Under the pieces are notes generated by a model. It was not told the DNA's origin and did no database searches. It worked only from the letters and a program-made list of their open reading frames with translations. From a virus: DNA of 54,025 bases. Shown piece after piece: positions 1 through 10,629 of the stretch (positions are counted from its first letter, which is position 1; every line of letters starts with the position of its first letter). A program made the position numbers and the translations under genes. The stretch is taken from the IMG/VR virus record IMGVR_UViG_3300008448_000113, positions 1 to 54,025 of that record. One strand, written 5' to 3'.

Positions 1-590
1 CCCATCGGAGTCATAGGGTCATCGGGATCTACGGGTCCAACGGGTGCAACGGGACCACAAACAATCACTGGAACCGCGGGTGTGCAGGGAGTTAGTGGTG
101 TTGCGGGTACTGCTGCGACGGGTGTACAAGGACCAACCGGACCTGTAGGTTCTACCGGACCAACGGGACCGTTGGGATATTCGGGTTCCACGGGCGTACA
201 GGGTATTACAGGTGTTACAGGGTCTACTGGACCATTAGGTTCAACAGGTCCAACGGGTGCAACAGGTGCGATAGGTCCGAGTGGACGGCAAGGAATTCAA
301 GGTATTACCGGTGTGATTGGTGTAACCGGTCCTTCTGGAGATATCGGTCCAACTGGACCCATAGGAATAACCGGACCAACTGGAGTAGGCCCCGCTGGGT
401 CAACTGGCCCTGTGGGAGAATCGGGACCGATAGGATCACAAGGAATTAGAGGAGCAACTGGACCTACCGGTGCGGCAGGACCATCGGGAAGTACAGGACC
501 AAACACATTCGGTGGTGCGGGAATTTCTGGACCAACGGGTGCAACGGGTGTCATCGGTGTAACAGGTCCAACAGGTGCACAAGGACGAAC
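1..590 (+). repeat. Collagen-like G-x-y coding repeats
   Basis: Tandem, degenerate 9-base periodic coding repeats give Gly at every third residue, dominated by GPTG, GSTG and GATG units. Such repeats form triple-helical shafts in viral and bacterial collagen-like proteins. Confidence 0.8.
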
Positions 591-1785
591 GGTATATTAT
601 GTTACCGGTGTTTGTGCGGCGGTCCACGCAAATGCAACCACAACGCATACCGACACAACAGTATATCACAGTGATACGTCAACTCCACATGGTAATTCTG
701 TTGCACATTCCAACATAACCATCGCAGGGTCACACGCTAATATCGCTGCATCACACACAGATTCAACAGCACATACGAACGCAACTACTACACACGGTGA
801 TGGTACCACAACGCACACAAATAGTAGTATTGCGTTTACAAACACGACTGCTCATAGTAACATTTCACCATCGCATAGTGATATTATCACTCACACAAAT
901 ATTTCCACAATTCACGGAGATGGTACACCACATACTAATATTGCGGCATCACACGCAAATGAAGCTGCGGTTTCACATACAGATAGTGCAACGCATTATG
1001 ATGGTGCTACGGAATTTGTTAATATTACCACACACTTCGATGTAGACCCATCACACGTAGATGGAGTACCTCACACAAACGTAAGTCCATTTCATGCAGA
1101 TGAAGCACCATCACATTCAAATTACGCAGCATCGCATGCAAATATCGCAGGTAATCATACCGATACAACCAATTTACACATAGATTACTATCTTGGTATT
1201 GACCCTGTTACGCACGGTGATACTCCTGCTAGTCACGCAGATATCACATCACCACATACAAATTATGCAGTACCGCATTCCGATGGGACTTCAAATCATT
1301 CAGATATAACAGTACCGCATTCCGATATCACAACGCATGCAAACACATATAGTACTCATTATGATCAAATAGCACATCAAGATACTGTAGCAAGTCATGC
1401 AAACTTTGTTGATCATTCTGATATCGTTGCTATACCACATTCCAATGAAACAACAAACTTTACAAATAGTGTTGTGCATACGGATATTCCTGCAACACAT
1501 ACTAATATTGCATCGCATGATGATATTACCATAACTCACACGGATATTGTGACACATACTAATATTACAGCGACTCACACCAATATAACGCCGTCACATG
1601 CAAATATATCTCCGTCGCATGCAAATGCAACACCACATACAAATATCAATATATCGCATGACGATATTACTATTACTCCAAGTCATACTAATGCAACACC
1701 ACACACAAATATTACCACCGCACACTCAAATGTAGCAGCATCGCATTCAAATGTCGCGGCATCACATTCGAATTCTACCACGTAA
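1..1785 (+). CDS. Collagen-like / [H/F]-x-[N/D] repeat tail fibre protein (5' truncated)
   Basis: The reading frame is open from base 1, so the start lies upstream; at least 594 residues are present. The first ~195 residues are collagen-like G-x-y triplets rich in GPTG and GSTG, as in many phage fibres. The rest, from about base 625, is a long array of short units carrying His-x-Asn or His-x-Asp (SHTD, AHTN, SHAN), about one per 6-8 residues, with occasional FVN or FTN in place of the His unit. No enzymatic domain is seen. By analogy with collagen-like phage proteins it is probably a fibrous virion adhesin; the His repeat array is not a family I can name. It is followed 5 bases later by a second collagen-like gene, and the repeat type recurs at 2680-5289. 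A GTG at 82 could be mistaken for the start, but repeats continue upstream of it. Confidence 0.75.
620..1776 (+). repeat. [H/F]-x-[N/D] repeat array, first fibre gene
   Basis: Degenerate coding repeats of roughly 18-27 bases encode His-x-Asn/Asp units separated by small or beta-branched residues (A, S, T, I, V, P). DNA identity between units is low while the His and Asn/Asp positions are kept, which points to selection on the protein. In some units Phe replaces His with Asn retained. Confidence 0.8.
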
Positions 1786-2679: not shown

Positions 2680-5289
2680 ATGCCAAAAGCACCAGGCAGT
2701 GTATGGGTAAGTGGAACAGAATTTCATTTTGTCGATAATACGGGTGTAGAATACTACTATATCGGTACATCGGTAGGAACTCCTGCCGGTGCAGTGCCTG
2801 GTTCTATTTGGGTCGATAGTAGTGATTTTCATTATATCGATTCGTCGGGAACGGATAGATTAATTGCAAGTACCGACTTAGGAGCAGTATCAGGAGCACG
2901 ACCAGGATCAGTTTGGGTAGAAAGTACTTTTTGGAATTGGATATCATCGGGTACAAATAAAAGAAGAGGACACACTGATGTTGCTGCAAGTCATACCGAT
3001 TTAACAACTCCCGCCGCACATACAAATGCAACTACCGCATTTGTTAATTCTACTATACCCGCATCACATACCGATGGTACTACAGCTCACACCGATGCAA
3101 CTACCACGGCATCACATAGTGATGCCACTACAACACATACGGATTTAACTACCCCCGCATCGCATAGTGATGGTACAACCCCTCATAGTGACGGAACAAC
3201 CCCCGCATCGCACAGCGATGGTACCACACCACATAGTGATGCCACAACAACTGCGTCGCACAGTAATGCAACAACACCTCACAGTGACGGTACAACCCCT
3301 GCGTCACACAGTAATGCAACAACTGCACATAGTGACGGTACAACTCCTGCATCACACAGCAATGCAACAACTGCATTTGTTAATTCTACAATAACAGCAT
3401 CGCACAGTAATGCAACAACAGCATTTGTCAATTCCACCGTACCTGCATCACATAGTGACGGAACAACTCCACATAGTGATGCTACCACACCAGCATCGCA
3501 TAGCGATGGAACAACTCCGCATAGTAACGCCACAACAACTGCTTCACACAGTGATTTAACAACACCATTTGCTAATTCTACCACACCAGCGTCGCATAGT
3601 GACGCAACTACAACATTCGTTAATTCCACAATACCTGCATCACATAGTGACGGAACAACTCCACATAGTGATGCTACCACACCAGCATCGCATAGTGATG
3701 CGACGACATCACATAGTGATGCTACAACACCCGCGTCGCATACAAATTATGCAACGCATTCTAATATAAGTACTCCACATGCAAATGCCGCATCGTCGCA
3801 TAGTGATTTCGCATCACATTCAAACGTGGCAGCTTCACATGGAAACGTAACCGGACATGCAAATACAGCTGCATCACATACCAATTATGCAACACATGCC
3901 AATGCCCCATCGTCGCACGCTAATATTATAGCACACTCAAATCAAGCGGCAAGTCATACTAATTATGCTACACATGCAAATGAAGCACCTACACACACTA
4001 ATTATGCAATACACGCAAACACACCAGCCGATCATAGTAATACGTACACCCAACACGGAAATACTCCAGGAAGTCATTCCGATACAACTATTATTCACGT
4101 AGATTATTATTTTGGTTTTCCAGAAGAAGCTCACGGAGATGTTCCGGCCAGTCATGCAGACACTTCGATAACACACGACGATGGGCCAGCGTATCATAGT
4201 AATTATGCAGCACCTCATTCAAATTATGCATTACATGGTGATGATACAATCTTCCATTCGGATGATGCATCGCATGGTGACGATACAATCTTCCACACAA
4301 ATTATGCAACGCACGATGATTCTACAAATCCCCACACAAATTATGCAACGCATGGGGACGATACAATCTTCCACACAAATTATGCATCACACACAAACTC
4401 ATCTGATCCTCATGCAAATATCATAAATCATTCTGACGGAACTACACCACATGCAAATACTTCCCCGTCACATGGAAATCAAACACCGCATGGTGATGCA
4501 ACAACCAACCCAAGTCACACCAATATCAGTCCTTCGCATTCGGATGGAACAACACCGGCAAGTCACGCGAATATTGTAGCATCACACTCAGATATAACTA
4601 TAAATTCAAGCCATACAGATATTGCGGCATCACATGCAGACGCAACAACGAATCCAAGCCACACGGATGTTTTGGCATCACATACGGATGGAACAACACC
4701 AGCAAGTCATTCAAATATTAGTCCATCGCATGCAGACGCAACAACTAATCCGAGTCATGCAAATATTAGTCCATCGCACTCGGACGCAACAACGAATCCA
4801 AGCCATACTAACATTGTTGCATCGCACTCCGATGGAACAACACCGGCAAGTCATACAGATATTGCTGCGTCACATTCCAATGCAACAACGCCAGCAAGTC
4901 ATGCAAATATAGCATCTGCACACACCAACGCAACCACAAGTCCAAGTCATGCAAATATTACCCCGGCACACACCAACGCAACCACAAGTCCAAGTCACGC
5001 AGATATTGTCGCATCACATTCTGATGCGACAACACCGGCAAGTCACGCGGACATCGTTGCTTCGCACTCGGATGGAACAACCCCCGCAAGTCACACAGAT
5101 ATTGCCGCATCACACTCTGACGGAACAACACCGTCGAGTCACGCAAATATCGCAGCATCACATTCCGATATAACCATTAACCCAAGTCATACAGATATTG
5201 TTGCATCACACGCGGACGGAACAACCAATCCAAGTCACAGTGATGGAACTACGGTGCACAGTGACCAACCTGTACTTGTTGGGGCTTGA
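2680..5289 (+). CDS. Large [H/F]-x-[N/D] repeat fibre/adhesin protein
   Basis: This is an 869-residue protein. The N-terminal ~95 residues hold three related units of about 30-35 residues with a PGSVWV-type core (residues about 5-10, 39-44 and 74-79), perhaps an attachment domain. The rest, to near the C-terminus, is an uninterrupted array of units such as ASHSDGTTP, with His-x-Asp/Asn on the order of a hundred times. In several units Phe replaces His while Asn is kept (FVN, FAN). A non-repeat island around residues 465-490 resembles one in the first fibre gene (DYYFG versus DYYLG, followed by a conserved HGD-x-PASHAD run), so the two genes share a layout. It is followed by a promoter and a radical SAM/SPASM gene that may modify it. 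Virion fibre is the best guess; metal binding by the His array is an alternative. Confidence 0.75.
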   Translation: MPKAPGSVWVSGTEFHFVDNTGVEYYYIGTSVGTPAGAVPGSIWVDSSDFHYIDSSGTDRLIASTDLGAVSGARPGSVWVESTFWNWISSGTNKRRGHTDVAASHTDLTTPAAHTNATTAFVNSTIPASHTDGTTAHTDATTTASHSDATTTHTDLTTPASHSDGTTPHSDGTTPASHSDGTTPHSDATTTASHSNATTPHSDGTTPASHSNATTAHSDGTTPASHSNATTAFVNSTITASHSNATTAFVNSTVPASHSDGTTPHSDATTPASHSDGTTPHSNATTTASHSDLTTPFANSTTPASHSDATTTFVNSTIPASHSDGTTPHSDATTPASHSDATTSHSDATTPASHTNYATHSNISTPHANAASSHSDFASHSNVAASHGNVTGHANTAASHTNYATHANAPSSHANIIAHSNQAASHTNYATHANEAPTHTNYAIHANTPADHSNTYTQHGNTPGSHSDTTIIHVDYYFGFPEEAHGDVPASHADTSITHDDGPAYHSNYAAPHSNYALHGDDTIFHSDDASHGDDTIFHTNYATHDDSTNPHTNYATHGDDTIFHTNYASHTNSSDPHANIINHSDGTTPHANTSPSHGNQTPHGDATTNPSHTNISPSHSDGTTPASHANIVASHSDITINSSHTDIAASHADATTNPSHTDVLASHTDGTTPASHSNISPSHADATTNPSHANISPSHSDATTNPSHTNIVASHSDGTTPASHTDIAASHSNATTPASHANIASAHTNATTSPSHANITPAHTNATTSPSHADIVASHSDATTPASHADIVASHSDGTTPASHTDIAASHSDGTTPSSHANIAASHSDITINPSHTDIVASHADGTTNPSHSDGTTVHSDQPVLVGA
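2974..5262 (+). repeat. [H/F]-x-[N/D] repeat array, second large fibre gene
   Basis: Tandem degenerate coding repeats, often 21, 24 or 48 bases long, encode HSDGTTPAS-like units. Some adjacent units are near identical in DNA, implying recent expansion or recombination. Others differ at most synonymous positions, implying selection on the protein pattern. Confidence 0.8.
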
Positions 5290-5314
5290 CAAATAGTTAA
5301 CTTAGTAGTATATT
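5286..5314 (+). promoter_or_regulatory. Sigma70-like promoter before radical SAM gene
   Basis: TTGACA at 5286-5291 and TATATT at 5309-5314 are separated by exactly 17 bases, starting inside the last codons of the fibre gene. The initiation point would be about 25 bases upstream of the radical SAM start. Confidence 0.7.
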
Positions 5315-5346: not shown

Positions 5347-6648
5347 ATGACAATTGAGTTAGAACCAGTTGGAGTAGTATGTAATTTAAGTTGTCCATAT
5401 TGCTATGAACATCCGATGCGTGATGCTGGAAACTTTCGGCATAAAACGTATAGCGTCGAAAAGATGTTACAGGGATTGGAACGTGAGGGTGGTCACTTCA
5501 CATTATTTGGTGGTGAACCATTATTAACGGATATTGACGATTTAGAAACCATTTTTAAATGGGGATACGAACGTTACGGTGGTAACGGTATCCAAACAAA
5601 TGGTACGTTAATAACCGAACGTCATATTGAAATGTTTAAAAAATATAAAGTGCACGTGGGTATTTCCGTGGACGGACCAGATGATATGAATGATACTCGT
5701 TGGGCTGGTTCCTTGGAAAAGACACGGGAATCCACACAGAAGTCCATGCATGCTATCAAACGATTGCTGGATGAAAAAATGTCAATGGGTATTATTATTA
5801 CTGTCCATAAAAAGAATGGATTGCCCAAGTATAGAGAACGATTTAAAAATTGGATTCGGGAATTAAAATCTTGGGGAGCAGACGGCGCACGATTACATCC
5901 GTTGGAAGTTGATCATAGTGCTGTTGGTGAGACGTTGGCATTGTCGTCTGAACAAAATATAGAATTTTTGTTGGACATGTGGGAATTTGAAATTTCCGAA
6001 TTGAAGGGAACATTTACCTTTGATATTTTCCGTGACGTAGATTATATGATGCGTGCAGCGGATAATAGTGCAACGTGTACATTCTTGGCATGTGACCCAT
6101 ACACAACACACGCAGTACAGGGAATTGATTCACAAGGTAATCAATCAAATTGTGGTCGTGGTAATAAAGACGGTATCAATTGGATTAAAGCCCAATATGA
6201 CGGATTTGAACGACAAATGGCATTGTATCACACCCCAGAAGAACATGGTGGTTGCCAAGGATGTAGATTCTTTGTAATGTGTAAGGGGCATTGTCCGGGT
6301 ACTGGATTGGATATGGATTGGAGAAATAAACCAGATTCGTGTCTAAGTTGGAAAGTTTCATTTGGTATTTATGAAAAGTTGATGTTGAAACGAGGTGAAA
6401 CACCGTTATCATTACATCCAGACTTAAAGAAATACGAAGAGTTAATGTTACACGGATTCAGCCGTGGGGTTGAATTACGTTTGTCTCAAATCAAAAAACA
6501 TTTGGAAACGGGATATAATCTCGACGCATATATAGAAGCAACATTGGAAAACATGAGACGAGGATTTCCAAAACCACACGCCGACCACACAGATAATACA
6601 GGCAAATATAAACAAGAGTATTTTGAGAAGTACGGTATAGAACTTTAA
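5347..6648 (+). CDS. Radical SAM/SPASM protein-modifying enzyme
   Basis: This 433-residue protein has the radical SAM [4Fe-4S] motif CxxxCxxC at C12, C16, C19 and a GGEP motif at 55-58. A SPASM-type cluster region follows with Cys at 244, 249, 269, 303, 306, 312, 316 and 332. SPASM enzymes usually modify ribosomal peptides or proteins (sactipeptides, cyclophanes, sulfatase maturation). No small precursor peptide is evident. Immediately upstream are fibre genes with hundreds of His-x-Asn/Asp sites, so those repeats are the inferred substrate. The C-terminal tail carries HADHTDNTGKY (411-421), a motif that occurs twice in the next gene. The ATG follows an AAGAGG site, and the gene has its own promoter. 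An anaerobic sulfatase-maturase-like role is an alternative, but no sulfatase is visible. Confidence 0.85.
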   Translation: MTIELEPVGVVCNLSCPYCYEHPMRDAGNFRHKTYSVEKMLQGLEREGGHFTLFGGEPLLTDIDDLETIFKWGYERYGGNGIQTNGTLITERHIEMFKKYKVHVGISVDGPDDMNDTRWAGSLEKTRESTQKSMHAIKRLLDEKMSMGIIITVHKKNGLPKYRERFKNWIRELKSWGADGARLHPLEVDHSAVGETLALSSEQNIEFLLDMWEFEISELKGTFTFDIFRDVDYMMRAADNSATCTFLACDPYTTHAVQGIDSQGNQSNCGRGNKDGINWIKAQYDGFERQMALYHTPEEHGGCQGCRFFVMCKGHCPGTGLDMDWRNKPDSCLSWKVSFGIYEKLMLKRGETPLSLHPDLKKYEELMLHGFSRGVELRLSQIKKHLETGYNLDAYIEATLENMRRGFPKPHADHTDNTGKYKQEYFEKYGIEL

Positions 6649-6666
6649 AACATAAGAGGATATGTT

Positions 6667-7050
6667 ATGGAAAACGGAATATTACACGCAGACCACATTG
6701 ACGAAACTGGTGCATACGCACGACGATTTCAAGTTGTTAAGGAGTTGGTAGACAATGGAACATTGACACAAATTCCAGAAGAATTTCGTGTAGGTGCAAC
6801 CGCATTATCACAGCAGGAAGTAGTTCCTGTTACACAAGAAAATTCCAAATTTTCATTTTATGATGAGTTTGGTCAAAAGCACGCAGACCACGTAGATGAA
6901 ACGGGTGAGTATCGTAAAGCATGGGAATCCATGTTTGGTCCTATGAACGGGGATAATAATGTATCATCCGAAGATACTCCTGCAAATACCGAATGGAAAT
7001 CGTTCCTACAACAGTTAATTGCAGAAGAAAAAGCAAAACTCAATATTTAA
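6667..7050 (+). CDS. Small protein with two HADHxDxTGxY motifs
   Basis: This is a 127-residue protein of unknown family, 18 bases after the radical SAM gene and preceded by an AAGAGG site. It contains HADHIDETGAY at residues 7-17 and HADHVDETGEY at 72-82, each followed by a positively charged, aromatic segment. A version of the same motif ends the radical SAM protein. It could be a substrate, a recognition partner or a scaffold for that enzyme; nothing in the sequence decides between these. The motif echoes the His-x-Asp units of the fibres. No signal peptide or membrane segment is seen. Confidence 0.65.
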   Translation: MENGILHADHIDETGAYARRFQVVKELVDNGTLTQIPEEFRVGATALSQQEVVPVTQENSKFSFYDEFGQKHADHVDETGEYRKAWESMFGPMNGDNNVSSEDTPANTEWKSFLQQLIAEEKAKLNI

Positions 7051-7066
7051 TTTTAACCCAAAGGTT

Positions 7067-8539
7067 ATGCAACGTTTAAATAGTGTATTACCAGATTGGA
7101 CACGAATACAGTGGACCAACATGGAAAATAAAATAAAGTATGGTCCAATTTTAAATTCCATAACACATGCGTGGAAACAAATTGAACGAATGTCTGTTGT
7201 ACACGATTTACGATCCTGTACATTAGATAGTATTAGTTCCACGGAACTTATAGCACTGACAGAAGAATACAAGAAATACGGTGTGTACATTGTTCCATTG
7301 GCAAAGGAAGGAATAACACACACATATTCTTCTACAACACAACCATATATTAACGGTAAACCCTATCGTTTGCGTGTGGTGTTTACAAAGTCGGAAGAAC
7401 TGGCACAAGAATTTTTCACGGTGTGGAATGCACCGGTGCTGGATAATTCCCGAATTGGTGAACTTCTTGGGTATCCAAAGTGTTGTACCGATTTTTATAA
7501 AAAGTATTGGGTTGATCAACGATTTGTAGATACTACGTGGGTAATGTCGGTTGATAAATTACCAATTGACGAAGAGGCACGAACCGTACATATTAAATCC
7601 GACACACCACCAGAATGTAATATTTTGTGGCGTTGGCAGGGTGTACGATTGGTTTCGCATTTACCATGTTCATTTGATTGTGAACATACGGTTGATATTG
7701 GTAGACGAAATGCAGAACTTGGACGTAAACTTGGATTCAATGCTGAAATGGATTTGGCATACGAGTTGTTGACTTGGCCTGTGGAATGGTCTGCGTTACA
7801 CGGTATTGCGGAAATTAAAACGCCAATCAACAAAGTATCCTCACGTACAGATATGACACCGTGGAAATACACAGTACAAAAACATAGTGATATGTATCCA
7901 GAAGATGGCGCATCGGGTACCATGTATCCGTACACAGAAAAGAAACTCAAGATTAAACCAATAACTACAACTAAGTCGTTTTTGAAATCACTTGAAGATA
8001 CATCTGTTTGGGAAGAAAACGGATTCCGTTACAAGGAAGCAATGGATCATTTTCACGAAGTGGTAGTTGAAGCAATTGGTAATATGAAGTATGTACCTTC
8101 GGGTAATGTCCTTGACCTTGGTTGTGGTAATGGTGTATTGTTAGGTCGTGTTGTTGGAGACAGAGCAGACTTAATTCCACATGGTGTTGAAATGGACCGT
8201 CAACGATGTATGTCGGCAGCAACCACTATCCATTGGGGATATTTCACGTTGGGTAATATATTCGACCTCAATACATGGAAGGAAGATTATTATAGTATGG
8301 TGCTGTTGATGCCAGGACGTTTGATGGAAACTGCAAAAGAAACGGCAGAGGCATTCAGAAAACAATTATACGATAAGACAGACTTACTACTTATTAATCT
8401 GACATGTGATTGGACTGTTAAGTATAAGACTATCGATAATATGATGGTGTTAACCGGTCTAGACAAAGATTGGGAACCGGCTGGTCCTGTTGTACATAGA
8501 AAGGATGATGTCGCTCAATTATTTAAGAGGAAAGTGTAA
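7067..8539 (+). CDS. CC-motif (DUF483-like) protein fused to class I methyltransferase
   Basis: The product is about 490 residues if it starts at the ATG at 7067, which has an AAAGG site just upstream; a TTG at 7019 would overlap the preceding gene. Around residues 130-145 an LGYPKCCxxFY stretch resembles DUF483-type proteins of unknown function. The C-terminal third has a Rossmann methyltransferase motif I (LDLGCGNG, near residue 349) and an acidic GVEMD segment, as in class I SAM-dependent methyltransferases. It sits in the radical SAM cluster, so protein or small-molecule methylation linked to fibre modification is possible. The substrate is unknown. The methyltransferase half is secure; the N-terminal assignment is tentative. 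Confidence 0.65.
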   Translation: MQRLNSVLPDWTRIQWTNMENKIKYGPILNSITHAWKQIERMSVVHDLRSCTLDSISSTELIALTEEYKKYGVYIVPLAKEGITHTYSSTTQPYINGKPYRLRVVFTKSEELAQEFFTVWNAPVLDNSRIGELLGYPKCCTDFYKKYWVDQRFVDTTWVMSVDKLPIDEEARTVHIKSDTPPECNILWRWQGVRLVSHLPCSFDCEHTVDIGRRNAELGRKLGFNAEMDLAYELLTWPVEWSALHGIAEIKTPINKVSSRTDMTPWKYTVQKHSDMYPEDGASGTMYPYTEKKLKIKPITTTKSFLKSLEDTSVWEENGFRYKEAMDHFHEVVVEAIGNMKYVPSGNVLDLGCGNGVLLGRVVGDRADLIPHGVEMDRQRCMSAATTIHWGYFTLGNIFDLNTWKEDYYSMVLLMPGRLMETAKETAEAFRKQLYDKTDLLLINLTCDWTVKYKTIDNMMVLTGLDKDWEPAGPVVHRKDDVAQLFKRKV

Positions 8540-8540
8540 T

Positions 8541-8759
8541 ATGAATGATATAATTCCTGTCCCACTAGCAGTAAAATTATTGATTGAGTCGCACAAAGAA
8601 AAAGTTGACCAATCATTAAAAAATCTCACCGACGCTAATTTGGAATTAATGCAAATGTTAAATTTGTTACCATCGGAAGGATGGAGATTAGACATAGATA
8701 ATTTCAGATACGTCCGTATACAGAGTACTTCTATTGATGAACCTACACCCGTCGAGTGA
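8541..8759 (+). CDS. Small hypothetical protein
   Basis: This is a 72-residue, mainly helical, charged protein. The ATG at 8541 follows the methyltransferase stop by one base and has an AAGAGG site upstream. Its 3' end overlaps the helicase gene by about 23 bases, so translation is probably coupled. I do not recognise the family. Confidence 0.6.
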   Translation: MNDIIPVPLAVKLLIESHKEKVDQSLKNLTDANLELMQMLNLLPSEGWRLDIDNFRYVRIQSTSIDEPTPVE

Positions 8760-10629
8760 ACGAGTAATCTTCACCTGGGGAAGATTTAAAGGACACTCCT
8801 TAGCACATGCTGCGAGGAGTGTTCCTTCGTATCTAGAATGGATGTCAGGTCAAGAAGGATTACCCGAAGCGTGGCGTATTGCTGCCGCAAAAACTTTATT
8901 GGGTGAGGATATCGATGATTTGGACTTACCAAGAACCAGTTCCCCTACCATATCTTATAAAAATTTACCAGATACAAAATCCGATACTGTCGAAGTCATT
9001 TTAGTTGATAAAAAGACGGCGGCTGTTATCATGCCATATAATAAAACTTTATTGGCAAAATTTAAATATGAAATTGATGGTCGTAAATGGAACAATGATG
9101 AAAAGCATTGGGAATTTCCAATTGTACATTTACCAAAGTTTTTTTCTGTATTTCCTGATGCAAAATGTAAACCTGACGTATTAAAGCGATTGGAAGAATT
9201 AAAAACTCGTCGTCAAGACTTGGATGAAATACGACAGCAAGAGGATACGGAATTTAAAATCAAGGGTATGAAGTTAGACTTATATCCCTATCAAAAGATT
9301 GGTGTACAATTTGTGGATAGAGCAGGAGGTCGTTGTCTTATTGCGGATGCACCTGGATTAGGTAAGACCGTACAAGCGATTGCATACGCACAACATCATA
9401 ATTTAAAAACTATTATTGTGTGTCCTTTGTCCGTGGTAATCAATTGGCAACGTGAAATTAAAAAGTTTACCGGAAAGGAGAGTACTATATGGGATTCAAA
9501 GGGGTATGACGGTAAACTCGGAAATCAATTTCATATTACACATTATGATGCTGTTTCTAAAAATAATCATTGGCTTCGTGACCAAAAGTTCGATTTACTT
9601 GTGTGTGACGAAGCAACCTATCTTAAGAACCGTCAAACAATTCGTGCAAAAAGTGTCTTGGGTTCATACAAAGAGCGAAGAAAATATCCAGGTATTAAAA
9701 CCAAGTATAGTATCTTTCTTACCGGAACTCCTGTCATGTCTCGTCCTATTGAGGCGTTTTCATTATTAAACTTTTTGGACAAAGAACGATTCAATAATTT
9801 TTATCATTTTGTAGAACGGTATGGTGGATGGAAAGGTGATGCTCCTCGTAACTTACAAGACCTCCACGATCGTACTAAAGATTTGGTCATACGTAGAAAG
9901 AAAAGTGAAGTATTAACCGAACTTCCATCAAAACAACGAAATGATTTGTACGTAGAATTATCAAAAGACGAAAACAAAGAATATCAAAAATTATTAAAAG
10001 AAGTATTTGGTAAATGGAAGTTGGAAGGAAGACCATCTGTCACCCATATGCCAAAACTACAAGCGTTTTTGATACAACAGAAAATGCCACGATTGATAGA
10101 AATGATTGATGAATTTCTAGATAACGATAGACCTATATTAATTTTTAGTTGTTATATTGCTCCCTTGAAGTATTTGTTAAATCATTATGGTGACAAAGCA
10201 GCAATATTAACGGGGGAAATGAATAGAAATGACCGTCAAGAAACTATCGATAAATTAACGAGTGGACAAGCCAAGGTAGGATTATTCAGTCTCCGTGCCG
10301 CGGGTATGGGTATCGATGGATTACAAAAAGTTATCGATACCGTTGTATTTATCGATATGGATTGGACACCAGCAAACCATGAACAGGCCGAGGACCGTAC
10401 ACACCGTATAGGACAAACCAATCAAGTGCAGGCGTACTATATGATGTGTCAGGATACGATAGACGAATATATGCGGGACATTCTACGGGAAAAACAACAA
10501 GTCGCTGACCTTATTGTTGACGGGGCTTTGGTCACCCCTGAAAGTAATAAATCGTTTTTTAAAGAATTTGTTCGTAGAATTAATAAGGTGTACGATGGTG
10601 GTTTTACCGAAGAAAATATCACAGACTGA
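8737..10629 (+). CDS. SNF2-family helicase/ATPase with N-terminal DUF3820-like and HARP-like segments
   Basis: This protein of about 630 residues has a Walker A APGLGKT near residue 207, DEAT (motif II) near 290, an LTGTP motif III, and a C-terminal QAEDRTHRIGQ motif VI, all diagnostic of SNF2/SWI2 ATPases. The first ~55 residues (WGRFKGHSL to YLEWM) resemble the short DUF3820/ExoX-C module. The next ~70 residues, up to a WxFP motif, resemble the HARP module of annealing helicases such as SMARCAL1. A role in fork remodelling or recombination, comparable to T4 UvsW or Dda, is inferred. ATG at 8737 is preferred over the adjacent TTG at 8734. Confidence 0.85.
   Translation: MNLHPSSERVIFTWGRFKGHSLAHAARSVPSYLEWMSGQEGLPEAWRIAAAKTLLGEDIDDLDLPRTSSPTISYKNLPDTKSDTVEVILVDKKTAAVIMPYNKTLLAKFKYEIDGRKWNNDEKHWEFPIVHLPKFFSVFPDAKCKPDVLKRLEELKTRRQDLDEIRQQEDTEFKIKGMKLDLYPYQKIGVQFVDRAGGRCLIADAPGLGKTVQAIAYAQHHNLKTIIVCPLSVVINWQREIKKFTGKESTIWDSKGYDGKLGNQFHITHYDAVSKNNHWLRDQKFDLLVCDEATYLKNRQTIRAKSVLGSYKERRKYPGIKTKYSIFLTGTPVMSRPIEAFSLLNFLDKERFNNFYHFVERYGGWKGDAPRNLQDLHDRTKDLVIRRKKSEVLTELPSKQRNDLYVELSKDENKEYQKLLKEVFGKWKLEGRPSVTHMPKLQAFLIQQKMPRLIEMIDEFLDNDRPILIFSCYIAPLKYLLNHYGDKAAILTGEMNRNDRQETIDKLTSGQAKVGLFSLRAAGMGIDGLQKVIDTVVFIDMDWTPANHEQAEDRTHRIGQTNQVQAYYMMCQDTIDEYMRDILREKQQVADLIVDGALVTPESNKSFFKEFVRRINKVYDGGFTEENITD

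Follow-up and report, generated by a model that had tools for sequence, protein, structure and literature searches.

A radical SAM (rSAM) enzyme encoded in 54,025 nt of viral DNA (the window, i.e., the whole stretch that was analysed) carries on its C-terminal tail a peptide motif, HADH-x-D-x-T-G-x-Y, which appears twice more in the protein encoded by the next gene, and this raises the question of what such a motif does there. The window has the gene content of a T4-like tailed phage (T4_baseplate, UvsX-like, DnaB-like helicase and phage DNA polymerase). A six-frame search found three exact copies of the motif in the window, all on the plus strand (Table 1), and no fourth copy elsewhere, compared with a number expected from composition of about 5e-7. 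The preliminary description of this DNA was correct in reporting a motif common to the rSAM C-terminus and the following gene, while some of its details need adjustment: residues 411–421 of the enzyme do carry HADHTDNTGKY, but 12 further residues follow before the protein ends, and the 127 aa protein has two copies, the second of which is not at its end. The two H-x-D units, described as overlapping, are adjacent triplets (HAD and HxD).

Table 1. Positions of the genes and motif copies of the rSAM gene cluster within the window.
Feature	Position	Strand	Remarks
Collagen-like fibre protein	82..1785	+	53 H-x-[D/N] units, counted in the frame open from base 1; extends beyond the window start
869 aa fibre-like protein	2680..5289	+	97 H-x-[D/N] units; presumed main substrate
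433 aa radical SAM/SPASM enzyme	5347..6648	+	Pfam PF04055, 61 bits; AlphaFold; Foldseek; invariant cysteines
Motif copy 1, HADHTDNTGKY	6577..6609	+	Residues 411–421 of the rSAM enzyme, flexible C-terminal tail
127 aa small protein, clade-specific	6667..7050	+	Largely disordered, three predicted helices
Motif copy 2, HADHIDETGAY	6685..6717	+	Residues 7–17 of the small protein
Motif copy 3, HADHVDETGEY	6880..6912	+	Residues 72–82 of the small protein
DUF483 domain fused to methyltransferase-like domain	7067..8539	+	PF04467, 28.2 bits (cut-off 25)

Many of the viral contigs are near-duplicates, and the HADH clade amounts to about eight distinct versions. Across these eight genomes no copy departs from H-A-D-H, D, G and Y, and only T or S occupies position 8, while the codons differ synonymously at every invariant position. 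The copies share only ~50% DNA identity over 22 codons, indicating that the duplication is old and has been maintained by selection. Judged from the sequences, the motif is maintained at the protein level and is not a recent repeat. The module extends beyond HADHxDxTGxY, with a short predicted helix after the motif in each copy. A scan of the back-translated motif against 2.9 million viral contigs matched 14. In 13 of these the same rSAM gene is accompanied by exactly three copies, arranged as in the window; the fourteenth, with a single antisense match and without an rSAM gene, was taken as chance. Across the viral contigs the motif thus tracks the rSAM gene perfectly (13 contigs), and the opposite pattern, a motif widespread away from any rSAM gene, was looked for in the 2.9 million contigs and is absent apart from that one match. 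The compositional expectation, the conservation and the distribution together rule out chance or low complexity. In the converse scan of viral contigs, the fibre repeat of the clade was found in 13, with the enzyme in 12 of them; the sequence of the thirteenth stops 27 bases past the fibre gene, and this was taken as the contig end.

The enzyme belongs to the radical SAM superfamily and has a SPASM domain, as judged by its cluster motif, cysteines, PF04055 match and fold. The CxxxCxxC motif (C12, C16, C19) is invariant among 51 relatives, as are the cysteines assigned to auxiliary clusters (C244, C249, C269, C303, C306, C312, C316 and C332), and the AlphaFold model (pLDDT 87) has anSME (4k37) and ChlB (9gm3) as its top Foldseek matches. 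Against curated maturase models the enzyme scores ~80 bits at best, where the cut-offs are mostly 300 or more, and the NCBIfam cyclophane maturases match at about 40–80 bits without reaching their cut-offs of 310–450. Falling so far below every curated maturase cut-off, the family appears to be unnamed. Relatives with 38–82% identity occur in viral contigs, in three Thermus phages (phiLo, Cumys and phiMa) and in bacteria, where about 69 genomes from many phyla have one. The first genome scan, which used the single protein as query, gave no match, and the 69 bacterial relatives were recovered with an alignment query; with 27 viral relatives they make up the 96 used in the counts below.

The only published account of the family found in the open-access literature (subscription journals may hold others) is the 'rSAM module' of Thermus phages Cumys and phiMa, consisting of an rSAM, a DUF483 protein and an unknown gene, for which DNA modification was proposed; the main text mentions neither histidine nor HxD (PMC11437467). 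The module is of the same family (46–49% identity to the window rSAM) with the same DUF483 partner, its unknown gene encodes an H-x-D repeat protein, and the rSAM tail ends in HGDYTDHGDAPHGDHWDG. It differs in having neither the TGxY extension nor the 127 aa protein.

The DUF483 protein of the window exceeds the Pfam gathering score, and its ATG start (position 7067) agrees with the starts of homologues, the listed TTG at 7019 being too early. A profile made from seven family sequences served to find the other members, of which those of L109 and L028 fall below the Pfam cut-off. Of the 96 rSAM relatives, 92 have a DUF483-type protein next to them or fused to them, and the four exceptions all lie at contig edges; the figure is 0 of 67 for control rSAM loci, which are low-scoring rSAM matches from the same scans and not a designed control set. 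The two proteins are fused into one in many bacteria (L048, L050, L051, L063 and others), implying a tight complex. The C-terminal methyltransferase-like domain, which is missing from the 312 aa Thermus version, could methylate Asp or an intermediate. Searches for solved-structure relatives gave none that were convincing for the DUF483 protein or the 127 aa protein. In Bradyrhizobium, Sphingomonas and Paraburkholderia (L095, L100 and L103), two more conserved genes, for proteins of about 330–390 aa and about 630–690 aa, lie beside the rSAM–DUF483 pair, with no H-x-D repeat protein nearby.

Repeat proteins are the third element of the arrangement. A dense repeat protein, defined as one with at least five H-x-[D/N] units in 60 residues and encoded within 6 kb of the rSAM gene, accompanies 69 of the 96 relatives (25/27 viral and 44/69 bacterial) but only 3 of the 67 controls. 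The two viral exceptions are contig fragments. The remaining 25 of 69 bacterial relatives (Bradyrhizobium, Nannocystis and others) have no such protein nearby, which counts against the fibre crosslinking proposed below. This arrangement of an rSAM and a repeat protein across phages and bacteria appears to be an undescribed protein-modification system. In the window, two collagen-like fibre proteins (82–2639) are encoded upstream of the H-x-D fibre, and the first, which also has H-x-[D/N] units, is a probable further substrate. The bacterial repeat proteins of L114 (12829–13302) and L073 (12749–13345) begin with export-signal-like sequences (a twin-arginine-like 'SRRQ' and a hydrophobic run), which suggests a surface location. 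Two of the bacterial relatives that lack a dense repeat protein do have, near the rSAM and DUF483 genes, short proteins ending in HIDF and HIDI (L109, 12670–12969; L070, 4713–4952), which may be single-site substrates; that of L109 has a weak match to an NHLP-clan RiPP precursor model (E 0.006).

Within the repeat stretches of the clade fibres, D or N occupies the second position after 783 of 784 His residues and after 203 of 224 Phe residues (for Phe, shuffled mean 45, maximum 67). When the repeat regions were first delimited more strictly, x-N followed Phe in 110 cases and x-D in five. F-x-N takes the place of H-x-[D/N] in the same register as the H units (L005–L011), and Y-x-D is common in the bacterial relatives. 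Spacings between H-x-[D/N] and F-x-N units are almost all odd (5, 7, 9, 11), with 684 odd and nine even in the fibres of L005, L007, L008, L009 and L011. These aromatic-x-[D/N] units match the acceptor motifs of triceptides, in which C4-Phe is linked to Asn, C3-Tyr to Asp, C7-Trp to Asn/Asp and C2-His to Ala/Arg (PMC11002830), and the match speaks for crosslinking of the fibres. The i,i+2 links listed in that review do not include His-to-Asp or His-to-Asn, and this weighs on the other side.

We propose that the operon is a phage fibre-maturation system, in which the rSAM/SPASM enzyme and its DUF483 partner would act on the aromatic-x-[D/N] triplets (H-x-D, H-x-N and F-x-N) of the fibre. The most likely reaction would link the ring of the aromatic residue (i) to the C-beta of the Asp or Asn two positions further on (i+2), giving a three-residue cyclophane, and such crosslinks may produce a rigid, 'stapled' fibre. 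The HADHxDxTGxY core, being two back-to-back triplets (HAD and HxD), would be a dedicated acceptor-like tag, presented in cis on the flexible tail of the enzyme and in trans, in two copies, on the small protein. The tag probably fills the same substrate site and is itself modified, and might prime the enzyme or the DUF483 complex or dock it on the substrate. Two of the roles suggested in the preliminary description, automodification site and docking tag, are thus combined in this proposal. We consider this account as a whole, with the fibre triplets crosslinked by rSAM and DUF483 and the motif a modified tag that primes or docks, to have slightly better than even prospects.

Known maturation systems share parts of this arrangement. 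The triceptide maturases (XncB, OscB/GrrM, MscB/FxsB, YxdB, HaaB, YhhB and AmcB) likewise combine an rSAM/SPASM architecture with an aromatic-x-residue acceptor, and YhhB, AmcB, DynA and GrrM are among the best profile matches of the window rSAM. Their precursors are short peptides with a leader, whereas the phage repeat proteins near the rSAM genes are fibre-like and about 170–870 aa long. Fibres of phages and surface-like proteins of bacteria are the presumed substrates here, many of them running to several hundred residues and containing tens of units, and the window system adds a DUF483 partner and acceptor-like units on the tail of the enzyme itself. The His-Xaa-Ser (Hxs) system, mentioned in PMC9062424, has histidine-x-residue repeats in HxsA together with the rSAM proteins HxsB and HxsC. 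The third residue here is D or N rather than S, the window has a single rSAM with DUF483, the full Hxs set (H-x-S repeats with HxsB, HxsC and HxsD) is not present, and HxsB is not among the best 25 matches. The closest neighbour in both sequence and fold is anSME (TIGR03942, 80 bits; Foldseek 4k37), but the score lies far below the equivalog cut-off of 349, no sulfatase was seen in the neighbourhood, and the acceptor context of the window system is H-x-D.

The preliminary description had likened the motif to the H-x-D repeats of the fibre, and the likeness is borne out in distant relatives, where rSAM C-terminal tails with H-x-D units recur. Among the family rSAMs, 24 of 97 have at least two such units within their last 45 residues; the proportion is 5 of 1536 for other proteins of the same loci, and 1 of 172 control rSAM-like ORFs has an H-x-D tail. 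Examples include HGDAPHGDAPHGDAPHGDAPHGDA, HGDWHGDHTDHGDSPHGDRG and HGDAPHGDAPHGDA, in addition to the Cumys tail. The feature is scattered on the tree, with 6 changes by parsimony (many forks are weakly supported), and so has been gained or lost several times. A back-to-back hexapeptide, H-x-D-H-x-[D/N], occurs in 19 of 23 tails, its first x being mostly Gly or Ala. No back-to-back H-x-[D/N] pair was found in the HADH-clade fibres, ruling out that the motif was copied from the clade's own fibre; the tail is thus more than a duplicated fibre segment. From its sequence it looks like a dedicated, substrate-like signal. In the window clade the tail has been extended by x-[T/S]-G-x-Y and a helix, with two more copies on the small protein. 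That the motif is always threefold beside the rSAM gene, together with the result of the converse scan, argues for its being a tag. The AlphaFold model can be taken in two ways: pLDDT is under 50 at residues 412–423, so that the motif is flexible, as expected of an acceptor or docking peptide, yet it is not confidently docked, which counts against the tag, though at the depth of this model the result favours neither a substrate nor a docking role. With 73 of 97 relatives having no such tail, it must be dispensable for the core reaction.

The small protein was predicted to be mostly disordered (a low-confidence prediction, pLDDT 58), with two of its three short helices closely following the motifs. 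It had no match in the phage collection and none outside the clade among all loci examined, and no trans small protein was found near the other lineages whose rSAM tails have H-x-D units. A string of motif, helix, motif, helix in a disordered chain fits the main rival, namely that the tag is purely a docking or adaptor peptide, an unmodified mimic lying in a groove of DUF483 or of the rSAM, with the small protein bridging complexes or tethering the enzyme to the fibre. Conservation of the tail hexapeptide in its own right, when it is missing from the fibre units of the clade, agrees with docking, as does that of the T/S-G-x-Y and helix extension, which exceeds what an acceptor needs. The tails of other lineages, however, share just the H-x-D units in varied surroundings (HGDAPHGDAPHGDA, HGDYTDHGDAPHGDHWDG), like repeated acceptor sites, and we regard docking alone as unlikely.

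Three further explanations fit less well than crosslinking with a tag. The preliminary description had suggested that the motif might be the true precursor substrate, and the position of the 127 aa protein adjoining the rSAM gene, with two conserved acceptor-like motifs and variable linkers, resembles that of a RiPP-like precursor; the tail would then be an auto-modified relic and the fibre incidental. Some bacterial relatives do have short repeat proteins (69–109 aa) or the HIDF-ending protein with its weak NHLP-clan match. The small protein is nevertheless confined to one clade while most relatives have repeat proteins alongside the enzyme (long H-x-[D/N] fibres lie beside it across the viral ones), and transporter or protease neighbours were not noticed, so that it is not favoured as the sole substrate and this explanation is improbable. 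The long tail fibres of T4 bind iron at His-x-His sites, and His and Asp are good ligands. If H-x-D were a metal-binding motif, with the tail and the small protein binding or delivering metal and the rSAM acting elsewhere, the x-D-x-T-G-x-Y part could be seen, from its sequence, as loosely calcium-loop-like, but F-x-N in the same register cannot bind metal in that way, which argues against plain metal binding, and the presence of the repeats follows the rSAM–DUF483 pair; we give this little credence. Modification of DNA by the rSAM–DUF483 module is the least credible, for although it was suggested for Cumys and phiMa from cyanobacterial neighbours (PMC11437467), the Thermus phages have no deazapurine genes, as its authors note, and the adjacent Cumys_13 is a 343 aa protein with 54 H-x-D units, the same units that occur in the enzyme tail.

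A broader form of the proposed fibre crosslinking, that phages of distant hosts staple their fibres by dozens of aromatic-to-Asp/Asn crosslinks and that an H-[G/A]-D-H-x-D self-tag, crosslinked in cis and, in this clade, also in trans on the two-site small protein, primes or regulates maturation, is advanced tentatively and is rather doubtful as a whole. If fibre crosslinking is correct, the structural fibres of virions would bear a RiPP-type modification, and no precedent for using radical SAM chemistry in this way was found in the open-access literature searched. It would give DUF483 a function, account for the H-x-D repeat proteins found in many bacteria and phages, and extend the known crosslinks to His-to-Asp/Asn. 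A self-tag also makes one ask how an enzyme of this kind can recognise tens of sites. The proposal is directly testable, since three cultured Thermus phages (phiLo, phiMa and Cumys) carry the system.

No T4-type late promoter adjoins the operon, its consensus being no commoner than chance, and the best promoter match is a sigma-70-like site at 5286–5314, a type of site that is not enriched over shuffled sequences. A different phage rSAM (25% identity), found in L170 (9905–11329), lies directly downstream of a HAN/ANxAF-type repeat protein (6742–9885), and is possibly an unrelated rSAM–fibre pair.
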